Shown: one piece after another, positions 194 through 59,017 of the stretch
Layout: every line of letters starts with the position of its first letter
Position numbering within the stretch: position 1 is the first letter of the stretch
Origin: Phlebopus portentosus
Lineage: Eukaryota; Basidiomycota; Agaricomycetes; Boletales; Boletinellaceae
DNA length: 64,000 bases
Assembly (NCBI GenBank): GCA_037892935.1
Contig: JAYXKI010000012.1
Span: 1 to 64,000 of the forward strand
Direction of reading: 5' to 3'
Made by a program: the position numbers and the translations under genes
Notes under the pieces: generated by a model
What the model was told of the DNA's origin: nothing
Seen by the model: only the letters and a program-made list of their open reading frames with translations
Database searches by the model: none

Positions 194-3100
194 ATATCGC
201 AGTATTTAGACACCAGTGACTGCAAGGAACGGGAGGTCCGTACGTCGCCTCCATATTCAGTGTATAAGGTATTCATACGTGGATTTAGGCATGCACCAGA
301 TAATGCTGTTCGACGTCCAGTGAGATTGGTGGTCGATGCTTCGAAAGTATCCATTTTGACATATGGTGTCCTCAGATGTAACAGGCTCGGACGGATGGAT
401 AGAGAATCGCTCCGTATTGACTGAACGTAAAGTAGTAGTCAATTGAAAAGAATCTCCTTGAGAAGCGACTCAGACCCATACGCTTGACAACGTTGATAAA
501 ATATACTTGTCCAGGATGTTTGTCCTATCACTTTCATTCACTGGAGGGAAGGAGGATGTGTAAGCACCATTGACCTTAAGAGAAGCATGCAGAGAAAACC
601 TTTCAATGTACAACCGGATCCATTGTCACCCTCGCTAAGAGCCGCTTCAGCAACAATCGACAGCACAGAATCTATAGGAGCATCACAGGATTCTGCGGTT
701 TGCGACGGTACGGAGAAAAGAGGGGGTTGAGCCATTCCGAGAGGATCAAATCGACGCTCTGATCCTGAGACAGACGTAGCGCAGGGTGGGTCATCGTTGT
801 TGACGCAGGTTACTACCGAAATGTGATTCTTTATTTATATTATAGGCCGGGTCCGAGGTTTCAGTCATCCATTGCCTTTCGTAGCACCGCAGCAAAGGCT
901 AAGACTGCGAAGCTCGAATTAATGACAGCGCAGTCATTCAGAGCAACGTGAACAACCGAAAGATACCTAAATATGGAGACCATGAATGCCGATAAGGACT
1001 GATTCCGATTTTTGAGCGACTTCAGATCTAACCAAGAATATTCACCAAGACGAGCGTTGAAAGGGAAGATGAAGGCTTCAAGAATCTCGGGAAAGGCTCA
1101 CGAACAAAATTCAAGAGGCCAGAACGCAAGTATCCTGAACGGCGACCGGAAAGAGGCTTGTCAGGATCGGTATGCGGATCGCGCGCGGATATATCTGAAC
1201 TTCCATTCCGGTTACTGTGAAGTAGTGCTGCGTAACAAGATGACAGAAAGGACCTATCAACGATGTTAAGATAGGGGAATTCATACTGTCAGAAGTTTTC
1301 GAGTCTGCGAAAAACGTAGAGCCCTTGAGATTTTGGTAACCTTAGAGTAACATTCCCCTCTTCGGAATGTCGATGTTTGGGTGCGTGAAGTGCTTGTCCG
1401 GTCCGTGTCAAAAAGGTGATGATTCGGATCAGAATCACATGACGTCAAGGTGACGGTCACTTTTGATACCCCGGCTGTATGTGACTTTCTGTGACAAGTC
1501 ACCAGTTTCACGATTTTCATGGAAAATCACTGAAAAGTGAGTTGTAAAGATTTATATATTGGTATGGGAAGTAATTAGGGAGGAAAATTACAAAAACCTC
1601 GAATGGGTACAGGAAAATGGGAAGCGAGTCTTCGTTGTGTCTTGTACTAAGCCTTAAACGCAGGAAGTACCAACTACTACTGCTTTCAGTCTCATCCGCT
1701 AACGAGTTCCAGTCACCCCCCGTACTGTCGTCCACTTCAGTGATTGTCCACACTTGTATTCTCCTTGATCTGATTCTGGACTGTTCTGTGACTTGACTTG
1801 GATTCGGATTGCATCGTCCTTTGGAAAATAGATTGTTGGGAAAAAACGGTGGCTGTTTCCGCCTAAAAAACCCGAACACGTGTGGTAAGTCATTGTATAG
1901 TGGAGGTGTATTATCGATTGAGGTAACATTGTCGCTGAGCAACTTGGTACATTCATAGGTGTGAGGGCTCTTGCGAGGCCTCATCCTGTGGTGTGGTAGG
2001 ATTTGGTATGGGAGGTAACGATTGTGGTGTTGTAGTTTTGATATCGCAGACTACAAACTGTAGAACTTCCCTCACCCCCAGGGTGTCGGATACAGGTTTT
2101 GACCAGCCTGCCTGGTGCTAGGGTTTATACTCGCCCACTGAGGCGCACATTAGCACGGGCCATCTCACATTTAAGTGAAGGGTAAGTTACCATTTGGTAT
2201 GGGTAGTGTAGTTGTATGGTGGTGGTAGAGGGAAAAGTGAGTTGCGCATGCAGGAAGGTTGCGGCTCTTGGCTCAGTAACAGGCAGTCACATAAGGGTGA
2301 CAAATATGGCACTGACCATTTTTTTTGCAGAAGATCCGTGCAGCCTCAGAGGCTGTACAACTACTTGACGCGATATTCATCCGCTTCTCTCCCTATCTCA
2401 TCCTCTCAGGGTCAACCTTCATTGTATATATACACCTACCCGACACGAAGCCCTGAACTGCCTCTTCACTTTCATGTTTGTTTTGCGGGTCCTGCCTGTG
2501 TGACTTTTTTTTTGTCATTTCATGAGATTTATCGATTTCATAAACAGCCTAGTATGATCAACACACATTTCCCTACATACATCAGACAATAATCAGCAAG
2601 TCCCCCCATACAATGTCCAGACATGCTAAATGCTGACCGGTGCTGAGAGACATTATGTCAATAGATCATAGCTTTCAGAAGGGCCAGGGCATGTGAGAAC
2701 AGACGTGCAGAGGCCCCAGTGCAAACGATTAGCCGGTGTTCGCATCGCTTAACACGCATCAATCTGGTCAACTGTTTACAGAAGGTACTAAGGTAGGAAA
2801 AGTATAAACTCGACCAACCTGTCATATGTGACTGATGACCCTGACAGACCCTGATTTAACCCGATTTAGAAGGACCCTGCAGCAAAAATCTGAGGTCTGG
2901 TTGACCCAACCCAGGACTTTTGTTTTATTTCCCTTGAGACTCATGAATTTTAAGCTCTGCAAATGTAGATTAGCTTCCTAGAGCTGGTTTGAAGCCTTTG
3001 TTTAGCTACTCTATGCTTTTCTGGTCTTTCAAGTAAAACTACTTGATCTGGATATGACAAAGCTATTACAAATGTATGACAAATGTATGATAAATGCAAG

Positions 3101-5650: not shown

Positions 5651-6510
5651 TGACTAGGCGATCAAAGGTCTGTGTGCTATGGGTGCTATATTATAGAACT
5701 CACCTTTCCTTCGATAGAAAAGGGTCCAACTTCCAGGTATTCGAGAGGGATCCTAGTTGTTCCCCGCCATCCTGTTCCGATATACTAAGTATACTAAGCG
5801 CTGATACTCCCCACATTCCCGGTGTCGTATTGAGTCTACTTAAGAAGAGTGAATAAATAGCTGCAGTGAAGGGGCTGGTCGTATGGTATTCCGACGGATA
5901 CTTCGTTACAGCAGACTCGTATGTCACTTCCTGATGCACATAATCAATGTACACTTAGCGTCTATGCACTTTTCCTAAGACGTACCCTTTCCTTTCCTTC
6001 TTTTGGAACCTTATCCTCTCCGTTATCCCTCCCTTGTTCGTTTATTCGTGCATCATCATTCATTCTGTTCTTTCTCGAGGACGTGGACTTCGACAGTCGT
6101 GCCGTGTGCTATCAGGTGATCCCTCTTGGACAAGGATAATGTGTGTGATTGCTTTCATGGGATACCAAGACAAAGTAAAGAAAGCTCGGTATTGGATTAC
6201 AATACCCCTACCTCCGAGCCGCCTGTTATGTAATGTCGACACTGTTCTGTCCGTCACGGCCTGCTACACGAATGCTGTAGTTATGTATCTAGTTCGAAAT
6301 GGTACGTCCTCTAGTCCTCACAAGGACGACTACTGTATGACACCGAACTCATCTGTCTATTCAAGATCCAGGAAAGAAAGGACCTGGACACATTGGCCCG
6401 CCAGCCTTTTGTTGTCGATGTAGCATCGCCTTCGGGCCTCCTTTGCGGCACATAAACTGAGTGCCTGAATAAAATCTGATCCCGGTCACACGAGTTCCTG
6501 GTTAAGTAGA
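5651..6510. other. No recognisable gene
   Basis: Several overlapping short open frames run on both strands, none with conserved motifs. The stretch separates the broken hypothetical gene from the kinase-like relic. Nothing else is seen. Confidence 0.4.
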
Positions 6511-11679: not shown

Positions 11680-12970
11680 ATTCTCTTTGCTTGTTTATCA
11701 AATCAAGCTCACCATCTCAAGCATCAGCATGCGCGACCCAGGAACGATATCAACGCTCATAGAGCATGCCTCGAGATTGCTTCAGACTTCCTCATGCCTT
11801 CCCTGGTTGATTGGCACCCGAACAATGTCGTTGATCTATGGCGTTGACTGGCCCGTTTGCCTCGCACTAGCAGCAATGCTTCCCGGAAGTTCGCCCCTTT
11901 CATCACGATCAGGTGTATCCATATCTTTGATATAAACCTGGATCGTCAGCTGATGGTTGGCTAGGTGCTCTCGAATGGATCCTGGATCGTCGTGATTGCC
12001 TCACGTGCCCCTCGAATAGACCCGTTCTGCGTTCGTACCCTGCACTCTCGCTCGGCATTTTCGATACTTGCTGGTATCTCACGGACCGGATCTAATAGAG
12101 TCATGTTCTTCTATGGCTCCGAATTCGACTATAAGAAGATAAGATTGCTTATAATACTGTTGACGTCAGTTGAATGGCCTGTAGATCTTCATCTGGAGGT
12201 AGCGCTGTCTCCTGTAATTGACTCAGTTCAGATACCCTTGATTGCAGGCCGAATACCGCTTTTGTAAGGCGTTCTCTTCCTTCAGGTTCGCTTCGACATT
12301 CTTCGTCTTTTTAGGCTCGACTAGGGGAACGTCACATTTGGTAAGTGATTTGGAAAGCTGAGTTGCGAACTGATCAGTAGGCTTGAACTCGCTCGGTTTG
12401 CTTTTTGATGCGCGAGGGCTGGCGTTCAAATTGGACAACGCCAAAATTATATCTTCAAGTTCAGCAAGAACTCCAGCAAGAGCACAATCAAGATTTCCAA
12501 TTCACCTTGGGTCCTGGCGTATTCAGCATAAACTTCGGTGAGATCCTGCCATTCTTCTGCATGCGGTTGATCATTGAAATGCTCGGACTACAGCTGAGCA
12601 AGATACCGGAAGGGATGAAGTAAAGGCCGTATTATAAAGGAACCTGCGGGTGACATGTTAAGTGAACTGTCGCCTCACCTACTGGAGGGCAGGCATAGAG
12701 GTAAGAAGCAACGACCGCGTTGGCAATGGCGGAAACTGAAAGGAGGCGATATATGAGGAGGGAAGAGAAGAAGAGCAACAGTAGCAACAAATTGCCAAGA
12801 TGACTACACATAAACAATAACAAGAAGACTGGTAATATCGAAGATAAACCAAATAGTAAGCAGGACAAATGTAATCTTACTGTAAAGACTTTGTTTCATC
12901 TGTTCGTCGCCATACACAAATTGTGGCGTATTATTTCCAGAATACGCAGTACGTAAAAAGAGACAGCGCG
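11680..12970. other. No recognisable gene between motif cluster and zinc-finger gene
   Basis: Frames of 70-100 codons occur on both strands without conserved motifs. The minus-strand piece near 12,223-12,444 is Lys-rich and low in complexity. The interval includes the 3' flank of the minus-strand zinc-finger gene, so part of it may be its untranslated region. Confidence 0.4.
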
Positions 12971-12976
12971 AGATAA

Positions 12977-14382
12977 TCAAAAAAGGAACTTCACTGCGTG
13001 GTGGCCGTACACATAGAAGACGTAGTCGGACATCTCGATCCACTTCGGAGAGCATGGTAAGTCTCTAGGGCCAGCTTTAGTCGATTCTTCCTTTCCAGGG
13101 CACTCTCGGCAGGAACAACGCTTAGTGTCACACAGACTGCATACGAAGCTTTCTCCATGACGGAATGTGAAGGAAGATCGAGGCGTCGAGTAACGTTTTT
13201 TACGAGGTGGTTCCTTACCGTCGACATCCTTGAATATGACTTTTCTGCACGAGGCGAACTTCCTATCAGAGGCGTGAGAAGGAGAAAAATGACCCGTCAA
13301 ACAAATAAACGAGACGGACATACCAACGGTGGAAATATTCCGCGCAGTAATGTCTCTTGCATGTTTTGCAGGTCATGTATGCCCATCCGCAGGCGACGTC
13401 TCTCCCCGTATCAGTTTTTTTGTGGGCGGTGCAGCAGTGACAGATGGGTTCTTCCTTGGCGATCGCGCTCCATAACGTCATAGTCATTTTACGTCCGGGC
13501 ATATGAGCGAGACTTTGTTTGTAGATATCATGTTGATATCTATCCTTCTTAGTAATTTCGGCGATCCGTGACAAGATCTCTTCTTCTCTGTATTTATAGG
13601 GTCCCGGAATCGCCATCGGTTCTTCGAAAGCAACTGGCGTTCCGTATGCGATGATAAGGATCAGACACATCGTGACAGAAAGTCGATACGAAATACTCAC
13701 GAGAACGACGTCCTACGGTGCTTTCATTTTCAGCAGCGGGATCGGCAGATGCTTCGACCGTGACTTCCTCGTATTCGCGGTATTGACGACTGGTGGCGCC
13801 TTTCTCACCAGCAGTCTCACCAGTTCCTTCGCCAGAGCATCCATTTGATGTATCTAACAACGCCGGAAACGATAAAAGAGGTAATCAGTGTTGCCCAGTG
13901 AGGATAATTTCTGTTGGACGAACCCTGTAGCGTACTTCCATCAAGGTCCACGTATTGGGCAAAGAAATCGACCCCAGAATCGTTTTGCGCAATTGCCTCC
14001 TCTAATAGTAGATGATGATAAAGAGAGGATTCAAGCAAGCGCGAGCTGTATACGAACGAACCATTCGCAAAACTGAGTCCAAGTGCTGCATGCATAACGC
14101 GTTAATGGTCGACTAACACCGTATGCCAATGAACATACATTCTGGCAGCGGCGGCAGCCAATCCTTGAAAGGCCTCATACACTGAGCGTTGAGCATAGAA
14201 TCTTCACTGGCATCTGACGGAAATCATATACACGGACGGGTGAGTCAGCTCAGGGCAAGTCCGCGTCGCGACGATAGTCAATGCTTACCCACAGCCTGAG
14301 GATCGAACGTCTGCCCTGGCCATTCATCGGCAATCGTTGGCAAGCCCGTGGAGAAGGCGTCTGCGCCTTCATCAAAGTTCAT
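12977..14382 (-). CDS. CDCA7-like zinc-finger (zf-4CXXC_R1) protein, six exons, apparently intact
   Basis: Six exons (14,382-14,289; 14,213-14,139; 14,085-13,924; 13,853-13,701; 13,633-13,324; 13,262-12,977) joined at GT-AG sites give exactly 1,080 nt with no internal stop, 359 residues, supporting a real gene. The N-terminal part is acidic and low in complexity. The C-terminal part has CHCCTAHKKTD, then CKTCKRHYC and, across an intron, CSLCDTKRCSCREC, matching the spacing of the zf-4CXXC_R1 finger of CDCA7-type proteins. In vertebrates and plants that family works with the remodeller HELLS/DDM1 in DNA methylation; the fungal role is inference. One expected Cys (in YCAEYF, where C-x-x-C is usual) is Tyr, so one metal site may be altered. 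The ATG lies 294 bp from the end of the SMC1-carrying element, which therefore sits in its upstream region. The C-terminus after the finger is less certain. Confidence 0.7.
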
Positions 14383-14779
14383 TTGCGATAGATCAAGGGC
14401 AAAATAGGAACAGAAATGAAAAGACACAGGACCGGGTTTATATAGTAGATCATCACATACCCGTACTGCGCAGCGCAAGAGCTTACATACAATTCGGGCC
14501 ACCTCTCGTAGACATCAGCAAGCCGATCGATACGAGAGCGCTACAAGGTCACCGTAGATGTATCCCGAAAGCCGGCGCGGGGGACGGCGAGTGATAAGGC
14601 GGGTATATTGCTGGAACAGATTGACTGAGGAACTCTGGAACGCATATTGGTGGTGGTGGTCGGCAATGGTATTGTCACAGCGGGCAAAAACCGGTTTCGG
14701 CAGTGCTGCGATAACGGTCGAAAGTAGGAATGAAATTAATAATCGCGTCAATGATTGCGTCAGCGTCGTGACTTATTAT

Positions 14780-15229
14780 CACAGCAGGCAAAGGTCGGTT
14801 TCGGCAGGGCCGCGATAACGAGCGAAAGTAGAAACGAAATTAATAATTGCGTCAATGATTGCGGCAGGGTTGTGACTTATTGATGCAACGTGCCTGTCGG
14901 CTTTGTTGAGACAATAAATTGCGTAATTGATTGCAAAAGGGGTTTCGACCTATCTGAGATTACAAATTGCAACATGTTTGCCACGGAAAGGGAAATTTGA
15001 AGTTGCGTCACGGTGGCAATTTATTAAGTCACTCGCGATTTCCCCCTTTGTGAGATTTCAAATGTCACACTTGACGCGATTTGTAATTTCGCCACCGGGT
15101 GGGCGATCAGTGGGCGATCAGCGGGTCGTTCCGCGGGCGATCACCGCATCCAGTGGGCGATCAGCGGTCCGTTCAGTGGGTGATCAGCAGGCGATCACCA
15201 CATTCAGTGGGCGATCTGCGGGCGATGGG
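14780..15229 (+). repeat. Left terminal inverted repeat of inner element
   Basis: This about 0.45-kb arm is matched in reverse complement at 17,850-18,302. The outer 320 bp are unique sequence; the innermost part, from about 15,097, is an array of GGGCGATC-type motifs separated by 8-20 bp. About eight matches or one-base variants are visible. Confidence 0.85.
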
Positions 15230-15232
15230 ACG
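15097..15232. repeat. Subterminal GGGCGATC array, inner element, left side
   Basis: The unit GTGGGCGATCAGYGG and variants repeats about eight times, always in the same direction here and in the opposite direction in the right arm (17,850-17,985). Arrays of short motifs next to the termini are the known transposase-binding regions of CACTA-type elements, so a binding role is a reasonable inference. Similar but diverged arrays occur in the outer element at 18,530-18,656 and 21,185-21,312. Confidence 0.75.
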
Positions 15233-15317
15233 CATCAATTTCTTGTCTTCTTGCCACCGTCATCCTCCATCCTGTCTTCCTTCACCGTCCCTGCTTACTT
15301 TAACGACTCGTAACATT

Positions 15318-17575
15318 AGGCAACTGCACGACCTTAACAGATCAAGGCCATGAAGTAAAGCAGATGAGAACCTAGTGGTCGAGATCACACGCATAGAATC
15401 ATCCCTGACTCTAGTAAAAGATGACTTGGTATGCTTAACGTTGGCTCCTTTGTCAGGGTACTGAGGGGTGACCTCCAATTCCCCAGGCTGCTTTGACCTC
15501 AAGTCTTAAAGGCAAGCAGGATGAGCTGCGACACATCAAGAGCGAAATGAAAAAGAAGACGCCGGAATTGAAGTAGGTTCGCGCCTTGTGACACAATGCC
15601 ATTTTGAAAGTATTGAAACAGAATTTACAGGCCAAAGCGAATCACGCTGCTCTGGTCGAAAGGATAGAAGCTTTGTCCACAGTCGTCAACAAAGCGGAGG
15701 ATGAAATATTCGCACGATTCTGCGCACAAATTGGCGTGGAAAACATTCGGGAATACGAATCGCGGCAGCTGAAAGCCGCGAGTGAGGAGGCTGCGGCTCG
15801 TAGGCGTTTCGAGACACAAACTGCACGTCTTACCCATCAGTAAGTTTCCTTTTTTTTATAGTTTGCCGTGAAGATCGGACGTACTGAGTGACGCCCTCAG
15901 GTCGCAATTCGAGGAACAGCAACTGGCAACGCTGCAAGAGCGCCTTGCAATGCTTGACACCGCTATAAATGCCGAGCGCGCAGCTATTAAGAAGCATGAA
16001 GCCGAAAAGCAAGCAGTCCAGGAAGAAATTGATCAGCTTCAGGAGTCTATCCTCGAGCTTCAAGAGGAGCTCAAGGAACTCAACGAGGTTTTAGAGACTA
16101 AGACGAAGGAACTTGATACCGTCAAGAAGAACACCGCTAGAGCGTCAAAAGTCCTTGACCATGCTCTAAAGGAAATTGCTTCGAAGGTTGGAATAAGCAT
16201 GCGTTCCCTATAACATCGTCTAATCATATGGATCTAGAATGACGAGATTGAAAAACTTGCTCTGGAGAGATCGTCTATCTCTCGAAAGTGTCGGTTGGAA
16301 GAGATTAAACTTCGTCTCGGATCAGGCAGCTTAAAGAACGTTCCAATTGAAGAGGTGAGTTTTGGCTCGATTTCCCGTCGTACAATCAGTTCTCATTGCT
16401 TTCTGTCACTCACTTCGATGCAGAATCTTCGAGAAGAGGTGACAATGGACATTGATGACGAAGACGGTACACAGAGGCCTCGACGCGTCCCTGATTACGG
16501 TATTGAGGTGGAGTTTGACTTACTGGACGACGAGGAGCGAGAAGTATGTACAGTCAAGTCCTTTTCATGTATGAACAATGTCCGACGAAAGTCGTTCAGG
16601 ATGGATCAGCAGAGATGGGATCAACGTACGATTCGTCTATCACCAAGCTTAATACAGAGATCGAGCGCATGGCACCGAACATGAAGGCAATGGAGAGGTC
16701 AGGTAAATCTAGTTCTTAATTAAGGACATTCACGAACGTCCGGATGTAGACTGGACGATGTTCAAACCAAGCTGCTGGACACGGAGAAAGCGGCTGAGAA
16801 AGTCCGCAAAGAGTCGAAACGCGCTCGGGACGAATTTAATGATATAAGAAAGCGAAGGTAAATATTGTAACGTGGTGAAGCTCAATCTTGTTTATAATGA
16901 CTTGTCTTCTGCAGATGCGATCTTTTCAACAAAGCTTTCACTCATATTTCGGAGCGCATTGATCAAATCTACAAAGACCTTACGAAAGGGAAGGCTGCGC
17001 CAATGGGCGGTGTTGCTTATCTGAGCCTGGAAGACAACGAGGTTAGTCGATGAATTTTGTATCAGAAGAAGTTATTTGCTAAGCTTTGCACGCAGGAACC
17101 GTTTGCTGCTGGCATTAAGTACCATGCGATGCCTCCGATGAAGCGATTTAGAGATATGGAGCAGCTCTCGGGAGGAGAGAAGACTGTCGCTGCTCTCGCA
17201 TTGCTTTTCGCTATTCACAGGTATCCCTTTCTTCATTGTTCTCACGAACTTTTCCTTACACTCTTTTCACCCGTCACTCTAGTTATCAACCAGTCCCTTT
17301 CTTCGTTCTTGATGAGGTTGATGCAGCACTCGACAATACGAATGTCGCCAAGATCGCTAATTACATCCGTTCCCGGGCGTCTGGCGAGTTCCAGTTTATA
17401 GTCATTAGTTTGAAGAATTCCCTGTACGAACGAGGCAACTCGTTGGTAGGTATCTACCGTGATCAGGAAGTGAACAGTTCCAGCTCCTTAACATTAGACG
17501 TAAGTGACTTTTTATCATACCACTCGCAAAATTAATGGGGAATTTCTCTTTCAGCTCACACAATATGATGACTGA
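15318..17575 (+). pseudogene. SMC1: Captured C-terminal half of cohesin ATPase SMC1 (inner copy), introns retained
   Basis: Exons between 15,318 and 17,575 encode SMC1 from after the hinge to the natural C-terminus. They start with a coiled coil (LNRSRP, then ARFCAQIGVENIREYE at about 15,714-15,762, then long E/K/Q heptads). Next come DLLDDEERE-type linker, FNKAFTHISERIDQIYKDLT, the ABC signature [17 protein letters not shown] (about 17,166-17,218), Walker [16 protein letters not shown] (about 17,297-17,343), and the end SLVGIYRDQEVNSS then LTQYDD-stop at 17,573. Introns at conserved-looking sites with GT-AG ends show capture of genomic DNA rather than cDNA. SMC1 normally forms the cohesin ring with SMC3 in the nucleus; this fragment lacks the N-terminal Walker A half and hinge. 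In-frame stops (TAG near 15,571 and TGA near 15,587) prevent a single product. Confidence 0.9.
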
Positions 17576-17849
17576 TTGCCGTGAACTCTGCTGAATCACC
17601 GCACACTCTATTTATTCTATCAACCCTTGCTGTCATAATCATAAATGTAATAACAATATGTAGCTTGTACGAATTCCACAACATAAAATGGGCATACGGA
17701 GTAAATGTGATGATCAATGCAATGCGAACGTGAACAGCAAATAGAAGAGAAGACAGCATAGAACAAAGGAAACAACTAGCACTAAAATTACCAGCAATGA
17801 AAGAAGTTGAGATGAGATTATATGTAATAAATTTCTTTCCGCCCGTTCA
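17576..17849. other. Captured sequence downstream of SMC1, inner element
   Basis: About 270 bp after the SMC1 stop are AT-rich and match 20,923-21,184 of the outer copy closely. They are probably the SMC1 3' untranslated and flanking region, picked up with the gene fragment. No open frame is convincing. Confidence 0.6.
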
Positions 17850-18302
17850 TCGCCCGCCACATTGATCGCCCAGTGATCACCCGCAGATCACCTGCAGATC
17901 GCCCACTGAATGTCCCGCTGATCGCCCACTGAATGCAGTGAACGGCCCGCTGATCACCCGCTGATCGCCCACTGATCGCCCACCCGGTGGCGAAATTACA
18001 AATCGCGTCAAGTGTGACATTTGAAATCTCACAAAGGGGGAAATCGCGAGTGACTTAATAAATTGCCACCGTGACGCAACTTCAAATTTCCCTTTCTGTG
18101 GCAAACATGTTGCAATTTGTAATCTCAGATAGGTCGAAACCCCTTTTGCAATCAATTATGCAATTTATTGTCTCAACAAAGCCGACAGGCACGTTGCATT
18201 AATAAGTCACGACCCTGCCGCAATCATTGGCGCAATTATTAATTTCGTTTCTACTTTCGCTCGTTATCGCGGCCCTGCCGAAACCGACCTTTGCCTGCTG
18301 TG
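17850..18302 (-). repeat. Right terminal inverted repeat of inner element
   Basis: This is the reverse complement of 14,780-15,229, with a few substitutions and indels concentrated in the motif array. It ends CCTGCTGTG and is followed by the duplicated TAT. Confidence 0.85.
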
Positions 18303-18305
18303 TAT

Positions 18306-18656
18306 GGCAACGTGCCTCTCGACTTTGTTGAGACAATAAATTGCGTAACCAGTTGCGAAAGGGGTTTCGACCCATCTGAGATTACAAATAGTAACGTGTT
18401 TGCCACAGAAAGGGAAATTTGAAATCTCGGCAAGGTCGCGATTTATTATGTCACACACGATTTCCCTCTTTGTGAGATTTCAAATGTCACAACTGACGCA
18501 ATTAGTAATTTTGCTACCAGTTGCACTCGGGTGAGCGATCAGTGGCTGCTCAGCGGGCCGTTCAGCGGGCGATCACTGCATTTGGTGGGTGATCTGTGGG
18601 CGATCTGTGCAGTGGGCTGTTCAGTGGGCGATCAGTGTGAGTGAGCGGGCGATGGG
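18306..18656 (+). repeat. Remainder of the outer element's left TIR
   Basis: This continues the outer TIR that starts at 14,676-14,779, as shown by alignment to the reverse complement of 21,185-21,638. Its inner end carries diverged GGGCGATC-type units (about 18,530-18,656). Confidence 0.8.
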
Positions 18657-18748
18657 TGGGATGCGTCAACTTCTTGTCTTCTTACCACCATCATCCTCCA
18701 CCCTGTCTTCTTTCATTGTCCCTGCTTACTTTAATGGTCCGCAACATT

Positions 18749-20922
18749 AAGCAACTGCGCGACCTGAACAAATCAAGGCCACGAAGTACAGCAGATGAGA
18801 ATCTAGTGGCCGAGATCACATGCATAGAATCGTCCCTGACTCTAGCGAAAGATGACTTGGTATGCTTAAGTCGGCTCTTTTGTCAGGGTACTAAGGAGTG
18901 ACTATTTATATCACAGGCTGCTTTAACCTCAAGTCTTAAAGGCAAGCAGGATGAGCTGCAACACATCAAGAGCGAAATGAAAAAGTAGACGCCAGAATTG
19001 AAGCAGGTTCGCGCCTTGTGACACAATGCCATTTTGGAGGTATTGAAACAGAATTTACAGGCCAAAGCGAATCACGCTGCTCTGGTCAAAAGGATAGAAG
19101 TTCTGTCAGCAGTCGTCAACGAAGAGGAGAATGGAATATTCGCACGATTCTGTGCACAAATCGGCGTGGAAAACATTCGGGAATACGAATTGCGGCAGCT
19201 GAAAGCCGCGAGCAAGGAGGCCGCAGCCCGTAGGCGTTTCGATACACAAATTGCACGTCTTACCCATCAGTAAGTTCCTTTTTTTTACAGTTCGCCGTGA
19301 AGATCAGACGCATTGAGCAACGCCCCCAGATCGCAATTCGAGGAATAGCAACTGGCAACGCTGCAGGAGCGCCTTGCAATGCTTGACACCGCTATAAATA
19401 CCGAGCGTGCAGCTATTAAGAAGCATGAAGCCGAAAAGCAAGCAGACCAGGAAGAAATTGATCAACTTCAAGGGTCTATCCTCGAGCTTCAAGAGGAGCT
19501 CAAGGAACTCAACGAGGTTTTAGAGACTAAGACGAAGGAACTTGATGCCGTCAAGAAGAACACCGCTAGAGCGTCAAAAGTCCTTGACCATGCCCTAAAG
19601 GAAATTGAATAAGCATCCGTTTCCTATAACATCATCTAATCATGTGGATATAGAATGATGAGATTGAAAAACTTGCTCTGGAAAGATTGTCCATCTATCG
19701 AAGGTGTCGGTTGGAAGGGATCAAACTTCCTCTCAGATCATGCAGCTTAAAGAACGTTCCAATTGAAGAGGTGAGCTTTAGCTCGATTTCCCATCGTACA
19801 ATCAGTTCTCACTGCTTTATGTCACTCACTTCAATGCAGAATCTTCGAGAAGAGGTGGCAATGGACATTGATGACGAAGACGGTACACAGAGGCCTCGAC
19901 GTGTCCCTGATTACGGTATTGAGGTCGAGTTTGACTTACTGGATGACGAGAAGCGAGAAGTCAGTACTGTCAAGTCCTTTTCGTGTATGAACAGTGACAC
20001 TGACGGAAATCGTTCAGGATGGATCAGCAGAGATGGGATCAACGTATGATTCGTCCATCACCAAGCTTAATACAGAGATTGAGCGCATGGCACCGAACAT
20101 GAAGGTGATGGAGAGGTCAGATAAATCTGGTTCTTTATTAAGAACATTCATTAACATCCGGATGTAGACTGGACGATGTTCAAACCAAGCTGCTGGACAC
20201 GGAGAAAGAGGCTGAGAAAGCCCGCAAAGAATCGAAACGCGCTCGAGACGAATTTAACGAAATGAGAAAGCGAAGGTAAATATTGTGACGTGGCGAAGCT
20301 TAATCTTGCTTATGATGACCTGATTCTGCAGATGCGATCTTTTCAACAAAGCTTTCACTCATATTTCGGAGTGCATTGACCAGATCTACAAAGACCTTAC
20401 GAAAGGGAAGGCTGCGCCAATGGGTAGTGTTGCGTATCTGAGCCTGGAAGACAGTGGGGTTAGTCGATAAGTTTTGTATCAGAAAGAGATATTTGCTAAG
20501 CTTTTCATGCAGGAATCATTTGCTGCTGGCATCAAATACCATACGAAGCCTACGATGAAGCGATTTAGAGATATGGAGCAGCTCCCGGGAGGAGAGAAGA
20601 CCGTCGCTGCTCTCGCATTGCTTTTCGCTATTCACAGGTATATCTTTCTTTGTTCTTGATGAGGTTGATGCAGCACTCGCCAATATGAATGTCGCCAAGG
20701 TCGCTAATTACATCCGTTCTCGAGCGTCTGGCGAGTTCCAGTTTGTGGTCGTTAGCTTGAAGAATTCTCTGTGCGGAGGAGGTAACTCATTGGTAGGTAT
20801 CTACCATGATCAGGAGGTGAATAACTCTAGCTCCTTAACATTAGACGTAAGTGACTTTCTATCGTACCACTCGCAAAACTAACAAAGAGTTTCTCTCTCA
20901 GCTCATGCAATATGAAGATTGA
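18749..20922 (+). pseudogene. SMC1: Captured C-terminal half of SMC1 (outer copy), more decayed
   Basis: This is the same fragment as in the inner element, in the same orientation and with the same introns, ending at the equivalent stop (20,920-20,922, peptide LMQYED). It is more damaged. A TAG lies in the first coiled-coil exon near 18,985 and the TGA near 19,018 is shared with the inner copy. The ABC signature is PGGEKT instead of SGGEKT (near 20,586-20,603). About 65 bp are missing around 20,650, taking most of the last-but-one intron, its acceptor and the residues before Walker B. The flanking TTTCTT repeats suggest a slippage or microhomology deletion. The shared TGA lesion shows decay began before the two copies separated. 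Confidence 0.88.
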
Positions 20923-21184
20923 TTGCCACGAACTCAGCTGTATCACCACGCACTCTATTTATTATATCAACCCTCACTGTCATAATCATAAATGTAATAA
21001 CAATATGTAGCTTGTACGAATTCCACAACATAAAATGGGCATACGGAGTGAATGTGATGATCAATGCAATGCGAACGCGAACGGCAAATAGAAGAGAAGA
21101 CAGCGAAGGGCAAAGGAAATACCTAGCACAAAAATGACCGTCGATGAAAGAAGTTGAGATGAGATTATATATAATAAAATTCTT
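20923..21184. other. Captured sequence downstream of SMC1, outer element
   Basis: This matches 17,576-17,849 of the inner copy. It is AT-rich, has no open frame, and is presumably the original SMC1 3' flank. Confidence 0.6.
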
Positions 21185-21638
21185 TCCACTCATTGCCCGC
21201 TCACTCACACTGATCGCCCACTGAACAGCCCATGGATCGCCCACAGATCACCCACCAAATGCAGTGATTGCCCGCTGAACGGCCTGCTGAGCAGCCACTG
21301 ATCGCTCACCTGAGTGCAACCAGTAGCGAAATTACTAATTACATCAGTTGTGACATTTGAAATCTCACAAAGAGGGAAATTGTGTGTGACATAACAAATC
21401 GTGACCTTGCCGAGATTTCAAATTTCCCTTTCTGTGACAAACACATTGCTATTTGTAATCTCAGATGGGTTGAAACCCCTTTCGCAACTGGTTACACAAT
21501 TTATTGTCTCAACAAAGTCGAGAGGCACATTGCCATAATAAGTCACAACCCTGACACAATCATTGATGCAATTATTAATTTCATTCCTACTTTCAACCGT
21601 TATTGCAGCACTGCCAAAACTAGTTTTTGCCTGCTGTA
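21185..21638 (-). repeat. Right TIR of the outer element, CpG-eroded
   Basis: This is the inverted match of 14,676-14,779 plus 18,306-18,656. Compared with the left arm, most differences are CpG in the left arm changed to TpG or CpA here, for example TGCGATAACGGTCG versus TGCAATAACGGTTG. The terminal C of CACAG also reads as T. The element is followed by TGT. Confidence 0.8.
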
Positions 21639-21641
21639 TGT

Positions 21642-23100
21642 AGTTTGTGATTTGCGTGCGTTCATTCCCACACTCTCAGTTAGCCTCATGAAATGTTGGA
21701 GATTGAATGCACTTTATACCAGTTTCTTTAACCTCTATCCCTGCATTGCACAACTTGATATCAACAAAAGAAACTTGTAAAATAGTATATCTATATTCAT
21801 TCCTATATGGCTGCAGATTTATTTTTTCAAACAACTTGAATTTAGAATTTATATAGCTGATTTAAAAGATTACAGTGTGCATATCTTAGGATTGAGTACA
21901 AAACTTGAAATTATAAATCCAGAGAATGAATCATTTGCATCCAAAACCCTTGCTACTGCAACAAGAATGATAAATTTTTGTGCTGTTGTGGAGTAGATAT
22001 CTGCCATCTCAGATGGCAGAAGACTAGCTTTTCATGGCACTGAGTGTAAAAACAAAGCTTATTATTCAAAAAAGTAATTCTTTTCTGAAGATTATATCAG
22101 AATGGACTCAAACAGATTCAAATTCCTATAAAAACAAGCCTAGAGTTTCATTGAGAGAGCATGCACAAGATTGTAGTTGAGAGTGAAGTAGTGTACATTA
22201 TTCCTAAGTGACTTTCTATATATGGGCACATTTTTGATCTCTGGCTGCAAGTCATATGCAGATGTTAACTATAAGGTCTTGCAACATTGGTGGTGCCATC
22301 GCATGCATTCCTACAAGCCATGCCATGTCATGCCAGTGATTAACGTAGGCTTGAGTCACTTTGAATCCTTTTTAACTGGCTGTCAAGTCACCCACATCAC
22401 ATAAAATATAGTAGGAAAGTGTTAAGTATATGTAATCTTACTTGTATGAACTTGTTATCTGCTTTTTGAAAATTTCTATAGAAAATCGGTCAAAATATAA
22501 CAAAATCTTGTTGGCAATGACCAATAAAAATAGTTTTTAATACAATTGAAGAAATCATGTAAAAATACATATTGTGCACTTTATACAGAAGAAATTTGTA
22601 AATGTGGAAGGCCTGAAGCTTAAGAACTTAAAAAGAGTCTGGGAATGCTCTGTTTCAATATATCTCCCTCAAATGGGCACCAATACCACTGACTTCTCTA
22701 CAAAGACATCATTTCTGTCACAGGAAGTCTTCAGACCCATTTGCATGTAATCAACTTTTGGTGTTGAGGATAACTAGTACTGCAATATGCATACTGAAGA
22801 GATGTTAGATATATGCTATAAAGAATGAAGAAGCACTCAACAAACAATAATAATTCAAGACAGAAAAACTTCATTAAATACATATAGTATGATAATATAC
22901 AGCCACGCACAACTATTATACATGACTATTTGCTTTAAATTTCTTTTATTGTGGTAAATTGAGAAGTGACACAGTGAGATCGGCGTGAGTTATCCAAAAA
23001 AAGCAACAATTTGAGCTCCGCCTTTGCCAGTCCCCACACGCACACACACAAGTTCTCGGTCGAGTCCCATGCACTGGCCGTAGTCGCTCAAGTGTCCCTG
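21642..23100. other. AT-rich empty stretch
   Basis: About 1.45 kb are strongly AT-rich, with short A/T runs and no open frame above about 60 codons. No element ends or coding motifs were found. It may be heavily mutated old repeat sequence. Confidence 0.5.
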
Positions 23101-23109
23101 TTTCTTTGT

Positions 23110-23639
23110 TACCCTCAACATCTATGACATCACTTTGTTCAAATACAAGCACGTGAGCCTACGAAAACCCGCAGATCAAGCAACCCAAACGAAAACTACT
23201 GGCACGGACATCGATTCCGAGTCTTCGCTAGTCGACATCATTCCCAGCGTACCTGTCCAGATCATCGACTATGATCGAGTTCGTCCCATGACTCGGTCTC
23301 TCGGCAACAAACGTCCACATTCGCATCCGGAGCGTTATTCAATTGCAATCCTCTTTCTCCGACACTCTTACCAGCGAACCAGATCCTGACAATCGACCCA
23401 CCCTACCTAAGCGAGATGACAGCGATTACAGATGCCCATTATGCCTTGACCAGGACGCGGACGGATACCTGAACTGAGCAGTGTCAGGTGTGATCATGTT
23501 TTCTTTACGCCGTGCGTATTTTTTTTAATATTTTCATCTGTCGTTCGCTGACAAAGATAAAGCACCTTCGACGTATTTTCCTCAGTTTCTGGCTTGTATT
23601 TTATCGTTGTTGGTGCCATTGCTCTCAAGCAGGTGCGAT
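23110..23639 (+). other. Coding-like fragments upstream of the HIRA copy, unidentified
   Basis: A frame from 23,135 to 23,389 continues with coding-like character to about 23,480, where CPLCLDQDADGYLN is seen in another frame. The single C-x-x-C is too little to call a RING or other finger. It may be a second gene fragment joined to the HIRA copy, or its degraded upstream region. No known family is recognised. Confidence 0.25.
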
Positions 23640-25060
23640 TAGATAAAGTTCATAAAGCTATCCTGGGTGATGCATCAAGGCTCGTGTCCGTACGCACAAG
23701 CAACCAGTGTGTGTTCTAATATTTTGTGCAGACAGCTATCGATATTCTCGGTCCACGTCTACCCAGACGGCTCCCGCATAGCTACATGCGGACTCGACGC
23801 GAAGATCTACATATGGATCACGAAACCTCTTCTCAACGAGGCAGCCGATGCAGTGAACAGGCCGCCTAAGTCGCTCTGTACGCTCACAGTGCACACTGGC
23901 CCCGTTCTTGCTGTCCATTGGGCATACTCAGAGCGCTGGCTTTCAAGTCGCAGCGACGACGAGATTATCATGATCCGGGATCTCGACCCGTCCGTGGGAT
24001 ATTTTTTTCTGCTTTCGCATTAGAACGAATTCCGCGCTCATGGATGGTGCCAGAACAGGTTCTAGAAAGGTTTGGAGCTCGGACGGAGTCAACGCTGAAG
24101 GATGGAAGCCTCCCAAGCGTCTCCCAGGCCATGAAAGTGGTATGAATTATAATCATGCTCAACATTATTTTCATTGCCTTTATCGATTTATTAGATGTAA
24201 CAGATCTCGCTTGGGCTCCTGAGGACCGTTTCCTTGCCTCGACTGGTCTTTATTCTTAAATCATGATCTGGTGCGGTTACAACTTGGAACAACTCACCAA
24301 ACTCGACATGCACCAGGGTTTCGTAAAGGATGTGTGCCGGGACCCTGTGGGCGAATTCCTCCCTAGCCAGTCTGACGACCGCACTGTGCACATGTAGAGG
24401 ATCACTAACTAGTGTCTGGAGGCGACAGTCACAGAACCTCTTTAACGTTCGCCCGGTGGCACGTCCTTCCGTCGGCTGAGGTGCGTCTACATTTATCATA
24501 TTCTCAATTTCCAGCTCATAGGATTTGCTTCAGCTGGTCCCGATGGTGCGCACATAAAAGCGTCGAACGCAACAAACAACAATGGATACGGGTTCACTGC
24601 AGCCGTCAGCTCTCACAATACACGGACGCCCGACATTAGTCTTGTCGGTCATGAGAATACTGTCGAGGTCGCTTGCTACAACCCGCACATCTTCCTGCGC
24701 GATCCGCAGATGCCGGTCGTAACATCCAACGTATGCGGCGTCGTCGCTCTGGGCTCAGACGGCCGCTCCATCAACTTCTGGCGGACGAGAAGCACGCGAC
24801 CGATCAGTGTTGCAAAGGAGGTCTTTGGGAGACGGATTATGGACCTTAGCTGGTATGCAGACGGTAGTTGTATGGTGTTGAGCGATAGCACCCTGACTAC
24901 GCTAGCATTCGAACTTGAGGCTCAGCGCCAGTATCTCAGCAAACTTGGCTTCTCCATTTGCCAAATAGCTACTTGCATTCTGCTGCTGAGCCGACGCTGT
25001 CTGTCATTGGTAAACGGACACGCAATGGGACGAGCCGTACCTACCTGACGCCTCCATTTG
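23640..25060 (+). pseudogene. HIR1: Broken copy of histone chaperone HIRA/Hir1, N-terminal WD40 region
   Basis: The order of HIRA landmarks is preserved: KLSWVMHQG (about 23,655-23,684; the expected ATG is lost), then after an intron IFSVHVYPDGSRIATCGLDA, PPKSLCTLTVHTGPVLAVHW and SDDEIIMIRDLDP. Next come GWKPPKRLPGHESG, after another intron DVTDLAWAPEDRFLAST (about 24,195-24,245), MIWCGYNLEQLTKLDMHQGF, a damaged SQSDDRTVHM, and ISLVGHENTVEVACYNPHIF (about 24,638-24,697). The last blocks are VTSNVCGVVALGSDGRSI and SVAKEVFGRRIMDLSW. HIRA deposits histone H3-H4 independently of replication. This copy has several frameshifts and stops (near 24,020, 24,260 and 24,395), and the first intron donor reads GC. 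Introns are retained, so the copy was made from DNA. The Hira/B-domain C-terminal half is absent. Confidence 0.85.
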
Positions 25061-28839: not shown

Positions 28840-30770
<1,931 letters not shown>

Positions 30771-51640: not shown

Positions 51641-52373
51641 ATACCTTAAGAATTTATACAAAGCTCGCCTCCGGTGAAGAACCGTGCGACGTTGAGGATT
51701 CACTCTCGTCGCTCATATACATGTCGGAAGTCTTGGCATCAGAACCATCAGAACCATCAGAACCATCATCCGAATCACCATCCGTGTTCGCTTGAGTGAG
51801 AATGAGAGAACTACGATTCCGGTCGTCCAATATCTGGTCGTCGGATTCGGCCCGCCTGACCCGATCCTGCAGAATTGCGAACGCTGAAGATTGACCAAAA
51901 GACTGAAAACGCATCTTCACTTCAATCAGTTCATTGCCATGCTCGTCATCGTGCCTCACCTTAAAGTCGTGCGCATCTCCTCGGTACCGATGGGAATCAT
52001 GTGGATCCTTCATCGCAACCACTTTATGTTCAGTCTCACTACCAGAGGTCTCCGGCACAAAAACCAGAAAGGATAGGATCTTAATTGAGCCATTATCGTT
52101 CGGAAAGCATTGAAGCGCCCGCTTTAGGTGACAAAATCGATCCTCTGCCAGATCTATATCCAGCTTGAAGGCGCCACACTCCTTGGTACTTTTGAGCTGA
52201 TCTTCTGCAAGTTTAGCCCAATCAACCAGCTTTCGGCAGAAACACTGTGATAACCATGCCAATTCTGTTCTCTGAATGGGATCGTGCTCGAGTTTGAGGA
52301 ATTCCCGGAGCTTCTGCGTGAGAATCTCGGCATTAATACGTCCGTCGGAAGTCTTTGCTTCCTCCAGTCTCCA

Positions 52374-52831
52374 TGTTAGGTGGACGGCTCAAGGACTGAG
52401 TCGAGGCAGGCCAACACAATAACAAACAAGCGCGAATGAGATAATCCCAAATACGTCGCTCAGGTCAAGACAGCTAAGACAAGGCTTAAGTCCAGACCGT
52501 CGAACGCTATGTCAAAGTGAAGGTAAGTAGAATTCAGTAAACTATTAATACAAGAGTAGATACCTATGTCAAAGTGAAGGTAAGTAGAATAGAAAGACAA
52601 GGAACGAAAGAGTCAAACTATCTACTTATATAGACTTTGAGCGTGGGAAAGGTCTACCCTAATGGGAAGTCACATGACAAGGAATGGGATGATTAGTGAG
52701 CGTGATAGAACATTGTGGAATGTTCCGGCAAAAGGATGAATAAGCACATAAGAAAAATAAAAGAAAAGAAAAAGAATATTAAAATAAATGATGACGTCAG
52801 AAAAGAAAAGGAAAATGTTCGAGTCCTTACA
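52374..52831 (-). repeat. 3' LTR of the Ty3/gypsy element
   Basis: On the minus strand this begins TGTAAGGACTCG and ends CCTAACA. It holds two copies of TGTCAAAGTGAAGGTAAGTA (plus-strand spelling) 57 bp apart. At the sites I compared, differences from the other LTR are all transitions. Confidence 0.9.
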
Positions 52832-52846
52832 TCACCCCCCCTTCAA
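52832..52846 (-). other. Polypurine tract
   Basis: On the minus strand, TTGAAGGGGGGGTGA lies directly before the 3' LTR, the position of the plus-strand primer for reverse transcription. The same bases form the end of the integrase frame. Confidence 0.7.
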
Positions 52847-55800
52847 GGTTGGGCGTCCCGACCAACCAGATAAGCCTTCTGAGGACGTGAACTTGTACAG
52901 CGCTCGCAGGCTTTGTCGAGGTATCGTTAACTTCCTTGGAGCTCCAGGATGTTTGCGGTAGAATTCTTGAATTGACTCCTGCGCATTATCCTTGACGTCG
53001 GATTCTGGCTGCCAAGTCGCTTCCTCATATCCAACCCACTTGACCAGGAATTGGAGTTTGCCTCGATGCAGACGCGAGTCGAGTATTTCTTCAACCTCGT
53101 ACTCTTTCTGCTCATCAATGATCACTGGCGGTGGTGGAGGTGGTTTCTTCTGCGATTCGAAGGACGGTTGGACGGCTGGTTTGAGCAAGATCTCGTTGAA
53201 AACTGGATGGACCTTCTTCCAGGTCTTCGGTAGTTTGAGTCTATATGCGCTTGCGCCAACCTTTTCCACTACCTCGAAGGGACCGAACCATTTATCATCC
53301 ATCTTCTTCATCGGTCGGATCGTCTTGATATTTCGTCCATCTAAGAAGACTTTCTGTCCTGCCTCATAGGTAATGGACTTCCCAGCATGGCGGTCGTAGA
53401 AACGCTTCATGTCTTCGTTTGCTTGGGTTAGGTTACCTTGAGCGAGTTCGTGCACCTCCTTGACATGTTTGGCAAATTCTTCTGCTGACAGGTTCGATGA
53501 TGCCGTTCCAACCCCCGTGAAGTCTAAGGGGTGCATTCCTGTATTGACGAAGAAGGGAGATAGCTTCGTCGCTGAATGTTCACGATTGTTGTATGCGAAT
53601 TCTGCGAGAGCTAGCCAGTCCGCCCAGTCCGACTGCCGATGGTTGACGTATAGCCGCAGGTATTGTTCTAGTTCCTGATTAACCCGCTCTGTCTGTCCGT
53701 CAGTTTGTGGGTGATACGCTGTCGATGGGTTGCCTTCAATGTGGAGGAGCTTGTACAACTCCTTCATCATCTTTGCGTCGAATTGCACCCCTCGGTCATG
53801 AATGATCTTCCGTGGTAGTCCATGTAATCGGAAGACGTGGTCTCTGTAGATCCTAGCCATGCCTTCCGCCGTTAACTTTGTCGTTGTTGGAATTGCATGG
53901 ATCTGTTTGCTAAAGCGGTCGACCACTACGCAAATCGCATTGAACCCATTCGATTCTGGCAACTCTCCGATTAGGTCGACCGTGACAATCTGTCATGGCG
54001 CCTCCGGCACCTCATTAGGGTGCAAAACCTTTGCTCTCGTTGTCCTTAGAGCCTTCGTCCGCTGACAACGATCACACCCCCGCACGTACACCCGCACATC
54101 TGCACTCATCCTCGGCCACCAGTACCTGTGTGCTATCAGCTGGATCGTCTTTGTTGCTCCCGGATGTCCTGCCAGGGTCGAGTCATGGTGTTCCTTCATG
54201 ACGTCCTCTCTGATGCTCGCTGGTACATATAGTCGGTGGCCCTTTCTCTACATGTCACCTCTCTTCTCGACGTCCTTCGGCCTCACTCCCTCATCCTCTT
54301 GTTTCTGCGCTTCCACGACCTTTTCAACGAGTACTTCTCTTGACGTCTGAACCATTCCTCTAACCAGCCATTCCTTCTTGATGAAAATCACATTTTCATT
54401 ATCGCGCTCGCCCTTGTCATAATCCGCCCGGCGTGACAACAGATCAGCTTTTCCCAACGTCTTTCCGGGTTTATGGACTAGCGTGAAATCGAACTCGGCT
54501 AAATCGAGTCGCCAACGAGCTTGTCGACGATTTAACTTCTGCGGAGATCGGAAGTACGTTAGATTTGCATGGTCTGTCCATACCTCAAAAGGTTGGTTAG
54601 CTCCCTGGAGATATTGTCGCCATTCCTTTAGGGCTTGAACGATGGCGAGCATTTCCTTGTCGTAAATCTCATAGTTTCACTCTGCCTCTAGGAATGTTGA
54701 CGACCGATAAGCGATCACCTTCCATTTACCGTCTTGTTTCTGGAGAAGGACTCCACCAGTCGCAAAGTCCGACGCATCTGCTTCTACACGGAAAGGGTCC
54801 TCGTTGTTGGGTATCGCTAACACGGGAGGACTACTCAAACAACGCTTCAATTCCTCGAACGCTGCCTGCTCATCTTCGCCCCATTTCCATTCCACCTTAC
54901 CCGTTAGGGTAGTCAAGGGTTTGACGACCGAACTGTAATCCTTAACAAAACGTCGCAACCAATTTCCTAATCCCAGGAATTGTTGCAGTTCGTGGACGTT
55001 CCTTGGAACTGGCCAGTCCTGTACTGCCGCCGTCTTCTTGGGATCCATTCGAACTTCGCCATTGCCAATAATGTGCCCGAGGTACTTGACTGTATCAACT
55101 TCGAACTCGCACTTCTGCGGCTTTAGGAAAAGTCCGTTTTGGCGAAGGATCTCAAAGACTCGTTTGGTGCGTCTGCGGTGTTCTTCTAGGTCATTCGAGA
55201 AGATGAGAATGTCATCAAGGTAAATGATGACGATACCCTCATGAATTAGCTCCCAAAAGATGTCATTCATAAAGCCTTGGAACGTCGCTGGCGCATTACA
55301 CAAGCCGAAGAACATGACTGTGGGTTTGAATAAGCCTAGATTTGTCCGGAACGCTGCCTTCCACTCGTCTCCCTCGCGAATCCGGATGTTGTAGTATCCC
55401 CAACGAACGTCGAGCTTCGTGATGTACCTTGCATCCTTAACCTTGTCGATGAGCTCATTTATCAGTGGCAACGGGTATTTGTTCTTGACCGTTCCTTCAT
55501 TGAGCTTTCGATAGTCTTGGATTGCTCGTAAGCTCCCATCCTCTTTCTTGATAAAGAAGAATGGTGACGCCATTGGAGACTTCGACTGTCGGATACGTCC
55601 TGATGCTAGGTTTTCCTCAATGAACTCCCTCATCGCTTCTTGTTCTTTTGGCGATAACGGGTAAACCTTGCAGTCGCTGGGTTTGAAATCCGGTTTCAGG
55701 TCAATAGCGTGGTCCCACGTTCGGTGGTTTGGTAAGCGTTCGAACGATTCCTCACTAAAGACGTCGGCGTATTCCTCCAGGTAAGGTGGCCATCTTGCCG

Positions 55801-56656: not shown

Positions 56657-56697
56657 CGAAAAGAGTCCTTTAGGAGACCGACCAGTCGTTCCGACGT

Positions 56698-58143: not shown

Positions 58144-58559
58144 CTTGATAGGCTGGGGGTGGAACGGGGATCGGGATGCTGTTCGGGCGGGACCGACTTC
58201 GGATAACCGGCTCGTCTTTGAAATTGATGACTAAACGAAAGGCTCCAAGGTAGATAATGAAGGAGATACTTGTCGACGACTGGACTCTATGCGTTACCCA
58301 CGAGAAGGTTTGATGGGAGTTCCAGAGAAGGGTGATTTGGAGCGCCACGGTGATGTGATTGGTTGATACTTCGGGTACTATCGGGTCACGTCGGAGTCAA
58401 TCGGACTTCGACGGGCAAGATAGGGGTTTGTTGTCTGCACGGTAGGAACCGGGTTTCGTTCAATGTCGTCCTTCGAAGATATACTTCAGGGGACACGTCA
58501 CAGGCGAGCGCTCGACGACAACGGAATCGGGTGTGAGCCAGAGGTAGGTCTTTCTATTA

Positions 58560-59017
58560 TGTTAGGCGGACGGCTCAAGGACTGAGTCGAGGCAGGCCAA
58601 CACAATAACAAACAAGCGCAAATGAAACAACCCCAAACACGTCGCTCAGGTCAAGACAGCTAAGACAAGGCTTAAGTCCAGACCGTCGAACGCTATGTCA
58701 AAGTGAAGGTAAGTAGAATTCAGTAAACTATTAATACAAGAGTAGATACCTATGTCAAAGTGAAGGTAAGTAGAATAGAAAGACAAGGAACGAAAGAGTC
58801 AAACTATCTACTTATATAGACTTTGAGCATGGGAAAGGTCTACCCTAATGGGAAGTCACATGACAAGGAATGGGATGATTAGTGAGCATGATAGAACATT
58901 GTGGAATGTTCCGGCAAAAGGATGAATAAGCACATAAGAAAAATAAAAGAAAAGAAAAAGAATATTAAAATAAATGATGACGTCAGAAAAGAAAAGGAAA
59001 ATGTTCGAGTCCTTACA
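58560..59017 (-). repeat. 5' LTR of the Ty3/gypsy element
   Basis: This is 458 bp long, the same as the other LTR. Around eight differences are visible (for example GTGG/GCGG, GCGCGAAT/GCGCAAAT, AATAC/AACAC), all transitions, or about 98 percent identity. This LTR would drive element transcription on the minus strand. Confidence 0.9.

Follow-up and report, generated by a model that had tools for sequence, protein, structure and literature searches.

How does a piece of a housekeeping gene come to lie twice, once inside the other's flank, between long inverted repeats? The question is raised by positions 14,676 to 21,638 of a 64,000-nucleotide stretch of Phlebopus portentosus DNA (assembly GCA_037892935.1, contig JAYXKI010000012.1, positions 1 to 64,000; G000:C12:1-64000 in our coordinates, hereafter the window), where two elements, A and B, each carry the same C-terminal stretch of the cohesin gene SMC1 between terminal inverted repeats (TIRs). 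Our answer, to which we give a probability of about 0.88, is that A and B are a nested pair of one non-autonomous, likely CACTA transposon whose sole content is a 2.5-kb, intron-bearing piece of SMC1, probably captured once and predicted to be mobilized by the tnp2 transposase of larger relatives. The features are listed below in window coordinates, with the three-base target site duplications (TSDs) that flank each element.

14673 to 14675, no strand: TSD TGT, left of B
14676 to 14779, forward strand: left 104 bp of the left TIR of B, severed by A
14777 to 14779, no strand: TSD TAT, left of A, within the left TIR of B
14780 to 18302, forward strand: element A, 3523 bp, complete; starts CACAGCAGGC and finishes GCCTGCTGTG
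14780 to 15227, forward strand: left TIR of A; its inner part holds five forward GGGCGATC subterminal repeats
15320 to 17830, forward strand: cargo of A, SMC1 from codon 698 to the stop, with introns, plus about 240 bp of 3' flank
15351 to 15353, forward strand: premature stop TGA in A (native CGA), cargo codon 11, common to the six A-type loci read
15574 to 15576, forward strand: premature stop TAG in A (native CAG), cargo codon 66, common to the six A-type loci read
17848 to 18302, reverse strand: right TIR of A, with five inverted GGGCGATC repeats
18303 to 18305, no strand: TSD TAT, right of A
18306 to 21638, forward strand: remainder of B; its right terminal base is changed from G to A, giving CTGTA instead of CTGTG
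18751 to 20434, forward strand: first part of the B cargo, close to the resident SMC1 and with resident-private residues; likely rewritten from the resident gene
20454 to 21177, forward strand: second part of the B cargo, older and diverged at all codon positions, with a deletion spanning an intron/exon edge
21639 to 21641, no strand: TSD TGT, right of B

A and B are two related elements, and A is nested in B, its insertion point lying 104 bp inward from the left end of B. All five B copies that lack A, located elsewhere in the genome (38.4 Mb in 23 contigs), show the exact empty site with a single TAT. The ungapped TIR arms of A (14780-15196 and 17886-18302) are 417 nt long and 95% complementary, and A and its relatives have the termini CACAG...CTGTG. 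The word GGGCGATC, chosen by eye, occurs in A five times forward at the left and five times inverted at the right, pointing inward in both cases; it is absent from the middle of A and from the 56,900 bases of the remaining window. Its counts per end are 3 and 2 in B, and 2 and 4 in a larger relative on contig C2. Neither element contains a transposase: the window has no match to tnp2 or Plavaka, and the region of A and B has no open reading frame (ORF) of 260 aa or more.

The genome holds one intact SMC1 gene, without flanking TIRs. The cargo of A matches it (C7:314199-316691, minus strand) at 92.2% identity, introns included, in a single colinear block (A 541-3051); the B cargo (18751-21177) is the same C-terminal stretch, also with introns. 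Codons are numbered on a hand-spliced SMC1 model of 1238 codons. A retains every one of the 11 introns in the native segment, each with GT-AG, unlike a processed (retro) copy, from which introns would be missing. Among the best 120 of 4304 proteins, native SMC1 is nearest to those of Sanghuangporus baumii and S. vaninii. A preliminary description of this DNA, made from its letters, had proposed a nested pair of one family with long TIRs starting CACAG, the same intron-bearing SMC1 piece in both and no other content or transposase, all of which is borne out. It had also held that TIR-like sequence around the native gene would point to a segmental duplication; the 9.9 kb fetched around native SMC1 contain none, and A matches there nowhere outside A 541-3051.

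Aligning the fragment to the intact locus, as had been suggested, defined the capture joints. At the left joint, A and B read ATTA(G/A) followed by GCAACT, native SMC1 reads TTTC followed by GCAACT, and four larger relatives read ATTA followed by AGTAATAAAG; the shared sequence is at most 1 bp. These relatives (C2, C8c, C8d and C11) agree with A at the left end as far as A position 539 and from there continue with non-SMC1 sequence, which fixes the left joint to the base in both donor and recipient. Both cargo joints coincide to the base in A and B, and the non-SMC1 sequence adjoining the left joint is homologous in the two.

A DNA search of the genome returned 33 matches, which resolve into native SMC1 and 20 cargo copies: A five times, B at those five places and at five more, one copy each on C4, C6 and C15, and two on C8. 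Many copies with shared ends and cargo were thus found, as anticipated, and they represent seven separate insertion sites, those of A and B recurring through duplication of the wider stretch. A short TIR pattern found only three places and missed known copies, and DNA similarity was used in its place; with 40 of 56 candidates scored, the TIR ends counted are minimum numbers. Both ends are readable at six of the seven SMC1 sites, and five of these six have a clean 3-bp TSD (A, TAT; B, TGT; C4, TAT; C8a, CAA; C8b, CAT). The part of the window from about 11853 to 24379 recurs almost unchanged (98.6-100% identity per aligned piece) at five further loci, on C7, C12, C13, C15 and C16, and the B site is present ten times in all, as a large duplication family with several copies close to contig ends. 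The cargo copy on C15 carries a 1.8-kb insertion (L016:3224-5049) flanked by a 9-bp repeat of cargo.

Might the SMC1 fragment have spread as a segmental duplication, with inverted repeats alongside it by chance? The wider stretch is itself duplicated, there are ten copies of the B site, and five B-only loci resemble the window at 98.6-100% over several kilobases. Set against this are seven insertion sites, six of them with readable ends flanked by short repeats, the bare surroundings of native SMC1, the empty site of A and the relatives that have the same end minus SMC1. Segmental duplication is refuted as the main explanation, its probability being next to negligible, and accounts for no more than the additional copies of the A/B site.

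The larger relative on C2 indicates what may mobilize the family. It spans C2:2575957-2605672 (L023, L030, L031 and L024), with 29,716 bp between its TIRs, the TSD AAG on both sides and nested insertions inside. One of its ORFs in C2:2589384-2591535 matches Transposase_21/tnp2 (PF02992; E = 1.2e-10), a domain present in 118 of the 120 homologues listed for this ORF (of 322 at E up to 1e-20), and an S. sanghuang tnp2 protein is matched at 98% over residues 214-544. Nine ORFs from TIR-relative loci, taken from outside the middle of the 29.7-kb element, contain no Pfam family above the cut-off. Short subterminal repeats, inverted between the two ends, are a CACTA trait. Such repeats are present here together with CAC..GTG termini and 3-bp TSDs, features of the CMC/EnSpm group, and with the tnp2 relative they place the family with EnSpm/CACTA. 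The same termini and TSD length have been reported for fungal EnSpm families (PMC12730594). On this sequence evidence, the superfamily is likely CACTA (CMC/EnSpm). Features of Pack-TYPE elements are also present, namely a host gene between TIRs, a source gene elsewhere without TIRs and the same cargo at independent sites.

We also considered that the ends belong to a Plavaka/KDZ element and not to EnSpm. Plavaka transposases do occur in this genome, and the C2 tnp2 ORF has a weak match to PF18759 (Plavaka; E = 0.018) as well. By coordinates, however, none of the 36 PF18759 matches in the genome lies inside a known element of the SMC1-carrying family, PF02992 is the significant match, and the termini reported for Plavaka are TGT..ACA or CATCA..TGATG (PMC12730594), as against CACAG..CTGTG here. 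We regard this assignment as highly improbable and dropped Plavaka as the mobilizing family.

Other features of these larger elements and of the window were observed. The 29.7-kb element also has long ORFs without a Pfam match, for example overlapping ones of 418 and 350 aa, and its end is interrupted by a stretch that is sized like the 1.8-kb insertion on C15 and partly similar to it in translation. In the window, about 270 bp at 29322-29589 show about 70% similarity to an internal portion of the larger TIR elements; partial matches of that kind make up 34 of the 40 genome places listed. A Ty3-type long terminal repeat (LTR) retrotransposon with a chromodomain integrase, its LTR pieces 98% identical, occupies window positions 52373-58858.

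Whether the cargo is still a gene can be judged from its lesions. Because both premature stops of A are found in all six A-type loci read, the A-type lineage spread with dead cargo. B has its own stops, TAG at cargo codons 60 (18986) and 142 (19346), and two deletions extending into exons. The preliminary description had taken the two copies to share a TGA lesion; compared codon by codon they do not, the sole stop in common being SMC1's own TGA. Between A and native SMC1, positions 1, 2 and 3 differ at 10/542, 18/542 and 55/542 sites (introns, 67/627), a codon-biased divergence unlike that of a purely neutral copy, which suggests that most of it arose in working genes. Among A types the bias is gone (A versus C8a: 39/542, 24/542 and 36/541), and the decay of A-type copies after their spread was neutral, with no coding constraint.

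Much of this decay falls on CpG. Relative to the group consensus, six of nine copies lost 5-36% of their CpG positions and at most 3.6% of other C/G; in C8a the counts are 155/426 and 43/1208, and in window B 22/364 and 7/1213. CpG positions are hardly decayed in window A (3/426), C7t (2/364) and C16t (1/364). A cargo copy at C8:1507455-1509553 is strongly CpG-decayed: its CpG observed/expected ratio is 0.37, whereas native SMC1 and the remaining copies lie at 0.95-1.14. Specific loss of CpG is a mark of methylated CpG, and silencing of the older copies is therefore likely. Judged by these patterns, the cargo is likely a decaying passenger rather than a working gene, and several copies are probably CpG-methylated.

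The element also appears to exist in a related species. Two S. sanghuang gene models, P0121 and P0122 (513 and 600 aa), are 97% identical to the cargo and begin with a translation of TIR sequence. In P0122 it is residues 1-83 that align with A 283-531, at 96%; P0121 aligns with A 331-420 and further on with sequence spanning the joint. An element with this left end therefore exists in S. sanghuang, where it is annotated as SMC1. Another truncated copy, P0127, is found in S. vaninii (89%); its start lies within the cargo. These fused TIR-SMC1 models, although predictions, would suit a functional cargo, acting either as a truncated SMC1 head or through small RNAs directed at SMC1, as would the mostly intact splice sites. 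Premature stops in all nine translated copies (three more are identical in cargo to one of them), the absence of codon-position bias among A types and the CpG decay of several copies make a function distinctly unlikely.

The A-type and B-type cargoes probably have different histories. Up to about native position 6400 the B types are close to native, with 14 B-only and 103 A-only sites; beyond it there are 50 B-only and 24 A-only sites. In a test on group consensus sequences (six A-type and three B-type copies), 191 informative sites placed a break between native 6406 and 6426 (window 20434-20454), a result reached by none of 10,000 permutations. Copy by copy, five of the six A-type copies give the same break, and C15b gives 6458-6461. 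In the first part, about 1.7 kb, B types carry five of the eight residues private to native SMC1 and A types none; two of the five private to S. vaninii occur in A types and none in B types. A protein tree of this part joins native SMC1 and the B types with support 100, and the A types with S. vaninii, P0127 and the two S. sanghuang models with support 90, S. vaninii grouping directly with the A types and the S. sanghuang models at support 72. The tree used seven of the 12 copies read, excluding C8a and window B, which are more decayed, and three whose cargo is identical to that of C7t. The second part of the cargo is too short to resolve in a tree. We consider it likely, from these sequence comparisons, that the first ~1.7 kb of the B-type cargo was overwritten from the resident SMC1 and that the remainder is older.

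The same similarity could have arisen in the opposite direction, with transposon cargo rewriting the resident SMC1. B types and native SMC1 share R945, G950, A974, E1071 and M1072, which are absent from S. baumii, S. vaninii and Fomitiporia. Yet a native gene contaminated by cargo should stand out by its private residues, and it shows no clear excess: in the first part native SMC1 has 8, S. baumii 13 and S. vaninii 5, the last from a sequence lacking 20 of 416 positions. The A-only differences from B and native in this part cluster, moreover, at third codon positions and in introns, the pattern expected of a working gene (9/408, 12/408 and 31/408 by codon position; introns, 50/449). We rejected contamination of native SMC1 and hold conversion in this direction to be very unlikely.

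Several observations weigh against the view that the SMC1 elements are a singly captured, tnp2-mobilized family with cargo from more than one species. As to insertion, a genome search with the joined flanks of B found only ten copies, all filled with B, and no empty site; C15b is flanked by a 4-bp repeat, AATG, without a clean 3-bp TSD; and C6 lacks its left 84 bp, which leaves its TSD unreadable. Sequence was read for twelve of the 20 cargo copies; the other eight, A and B at C12:1474k, C18, C20 and C21, are represented by search matches. As to the transposase, both ends were seen in only one larger relative, that on C2, and its tnp2 gene is disrupted by two stops within the last matched piece relative to S. 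sanghuang tnp2. The next closest tnp2, on C11 (88%), is not linked to TIRs on both sides. A TIR-sharing, CMC/EnSpm-like autonomous relative had been named as evidence that would support the family; one TIR-bounded tnp2 element was found, and it is disrupted, and the genome yielded no intact autonomous element bearing these TIRs. As to descent, the evidence for the affinity of A to S. vaninii consists of protein sequence, two private residues in common and tree supports of 90 and 72. Finally, A and C7t, a B type, differ by 18.0% in their ends and by 8.4% in the SMC1 3' flank, a discrepancy for which a single capture with equal rates does not account. CpG decay alone was rejected as the cause of the older-looking ends, since the excess persists without CpG positions (14.9% in the ends against 5.2% in the flank). 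The excess could stem from recurrent exchange among cargo copies or from a higher rate of change in the ends.

This 18% divergence of the ends would also fit two independent captures, in which the A-type cargo came from an S. vaninii-like fungus and the B-type cargo later from the resident gene, as would the placement of the A-type and B-type first parts beside different functional SMC1 lineages. Two captures would have to arrive at both joints identically to the base, next to homologous non-SMC1 sequence at the left joint, and would leave the last ~0.7 kb of the B types, which is old and not resident-like, without a source in the resident gene. We consider this history unlikely. We favour instead a single capture followed by partial rewriting of one cargo lineage. 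The claim that the fragment was picked up once is supported by the joints that A and B share; since the B-type cargo was probably part-rewritten by the resident gene, a history of one capture and then passive carriage is too simple. Overall, the observations of the preliminary description are partly confirmed, and its interpretation as a transposon is supported.

The sequence of events might have been as follows. A break or gap would have been filled with template switching between an element and an SMC1 locus, and the product moved by cut-and-paste with tnp2 transposase supplied in trans. The A-type elements may have drawn their SMC1 from a lineage of the S. vaninii side and reached this genome through interspecies crossing, and gene conversion by the resident SMC1 would have overwritten the first ~1.7 kb of the B-type cargo. 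The broader proposal, that the transposon ferries an SMC1 piece between related species and swaps sequence with its source gene, the resident SMC1 overwriting the cargo by ectopic gene conversion, is in our judgement evenly balanced. If the cargo was so overwritten, one element family stores SMC1 alleles of more than one species in a single genome.

Host-gene-carrying DNA transposons are not new to fungi, as printed cases demonstrate: a hAT transposon carries histone H3 in Pyrenophora and in Pseudocercospora and its relatives (PMC3538342, PMC6710886), and EnSpm and other superfamilies carry a TET/JBP gene (PMC12730594). The hAT system is alike in that a fungal DNA transposon amplifies housekeeping-gene sequence, and differs in superfamily from the CACTA-type elements described here. 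In one of these reports a transcript was captured and the copies were hit by RIP (PMC6710886), whereas the SMC1 cargo retains its introns and has decayed chiefly at CpG. TET/JBP-carrying EnSpm elements share the CAC..GTG termini, the 3-bp TSDs and a captured gene; there TET/JBP is encoded as a transposon protein, with a proposed role in anti-silencing (PMC12730594), whereas here a broken fragment stands alone with no transposase. Pack-TYPE elements of plants, including Pack-CACTA, are likewise non-autonomous TIR elements around host gene sequence (PMC8903248). The present case differs in its basidiomycete host, in being one family with one cargo, and in a cargo part-rewritten from its source and of mixed species descent. 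For the Pack-TIR elements of animals, gap filling or template switching with little homology at the joints, followed by amplification, has been described (PMC8277862); the host group differs, and the accessible part of that report describes no rewriting of cargo by the source gene.

Among the papers listed by a literature search, judged by titles and the openings of abstracts and with most subscription papers outside its coverage, none deals with a Pack-CACTA family in fungi or with a cargo of SMC1. The preliminary description had suggested that a fungal family with a cohesin gene as its sole content was undescribed; this stands for SMC1 as cargo in the papers searched and does not stand for gene-carrying DNA transposons in general. 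Helitrons are not known to have TIRs or target duplications. Gene-capturing Helitrons of Pleurotus are comparable as basidiomycete transposons with pieces of host genes and, unlike the SMC1 elements, are rolling-circle elements (PMC4289320). A term search of the accessible text of the S. sanghuang genome paper gave no mention of CACTA, CMC, EnSpm or SMC1 (PMC8537844). In the available portion of one fungal paper, Pack-CACTA appears in the reference list only (PMC10853768), and that of PMC4858842 bears on rice MULEs only.

These findings extend to a basidiomycete the Pack-CACTA habit of plants, and a single genome supplies the joints, an empty site and a relative that bears a transposase. They also call for caution in annotation, as the S. 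sanghuang models SMC1_1 and SMC1_3 resemble a fusion of translated TIR with transposon cargo. With an intact source gene and relatives against which to date the cargo, two points become directly testable: whether captured fragments continue to be rewritten by their source gene, and whether such fragments cross species borders.

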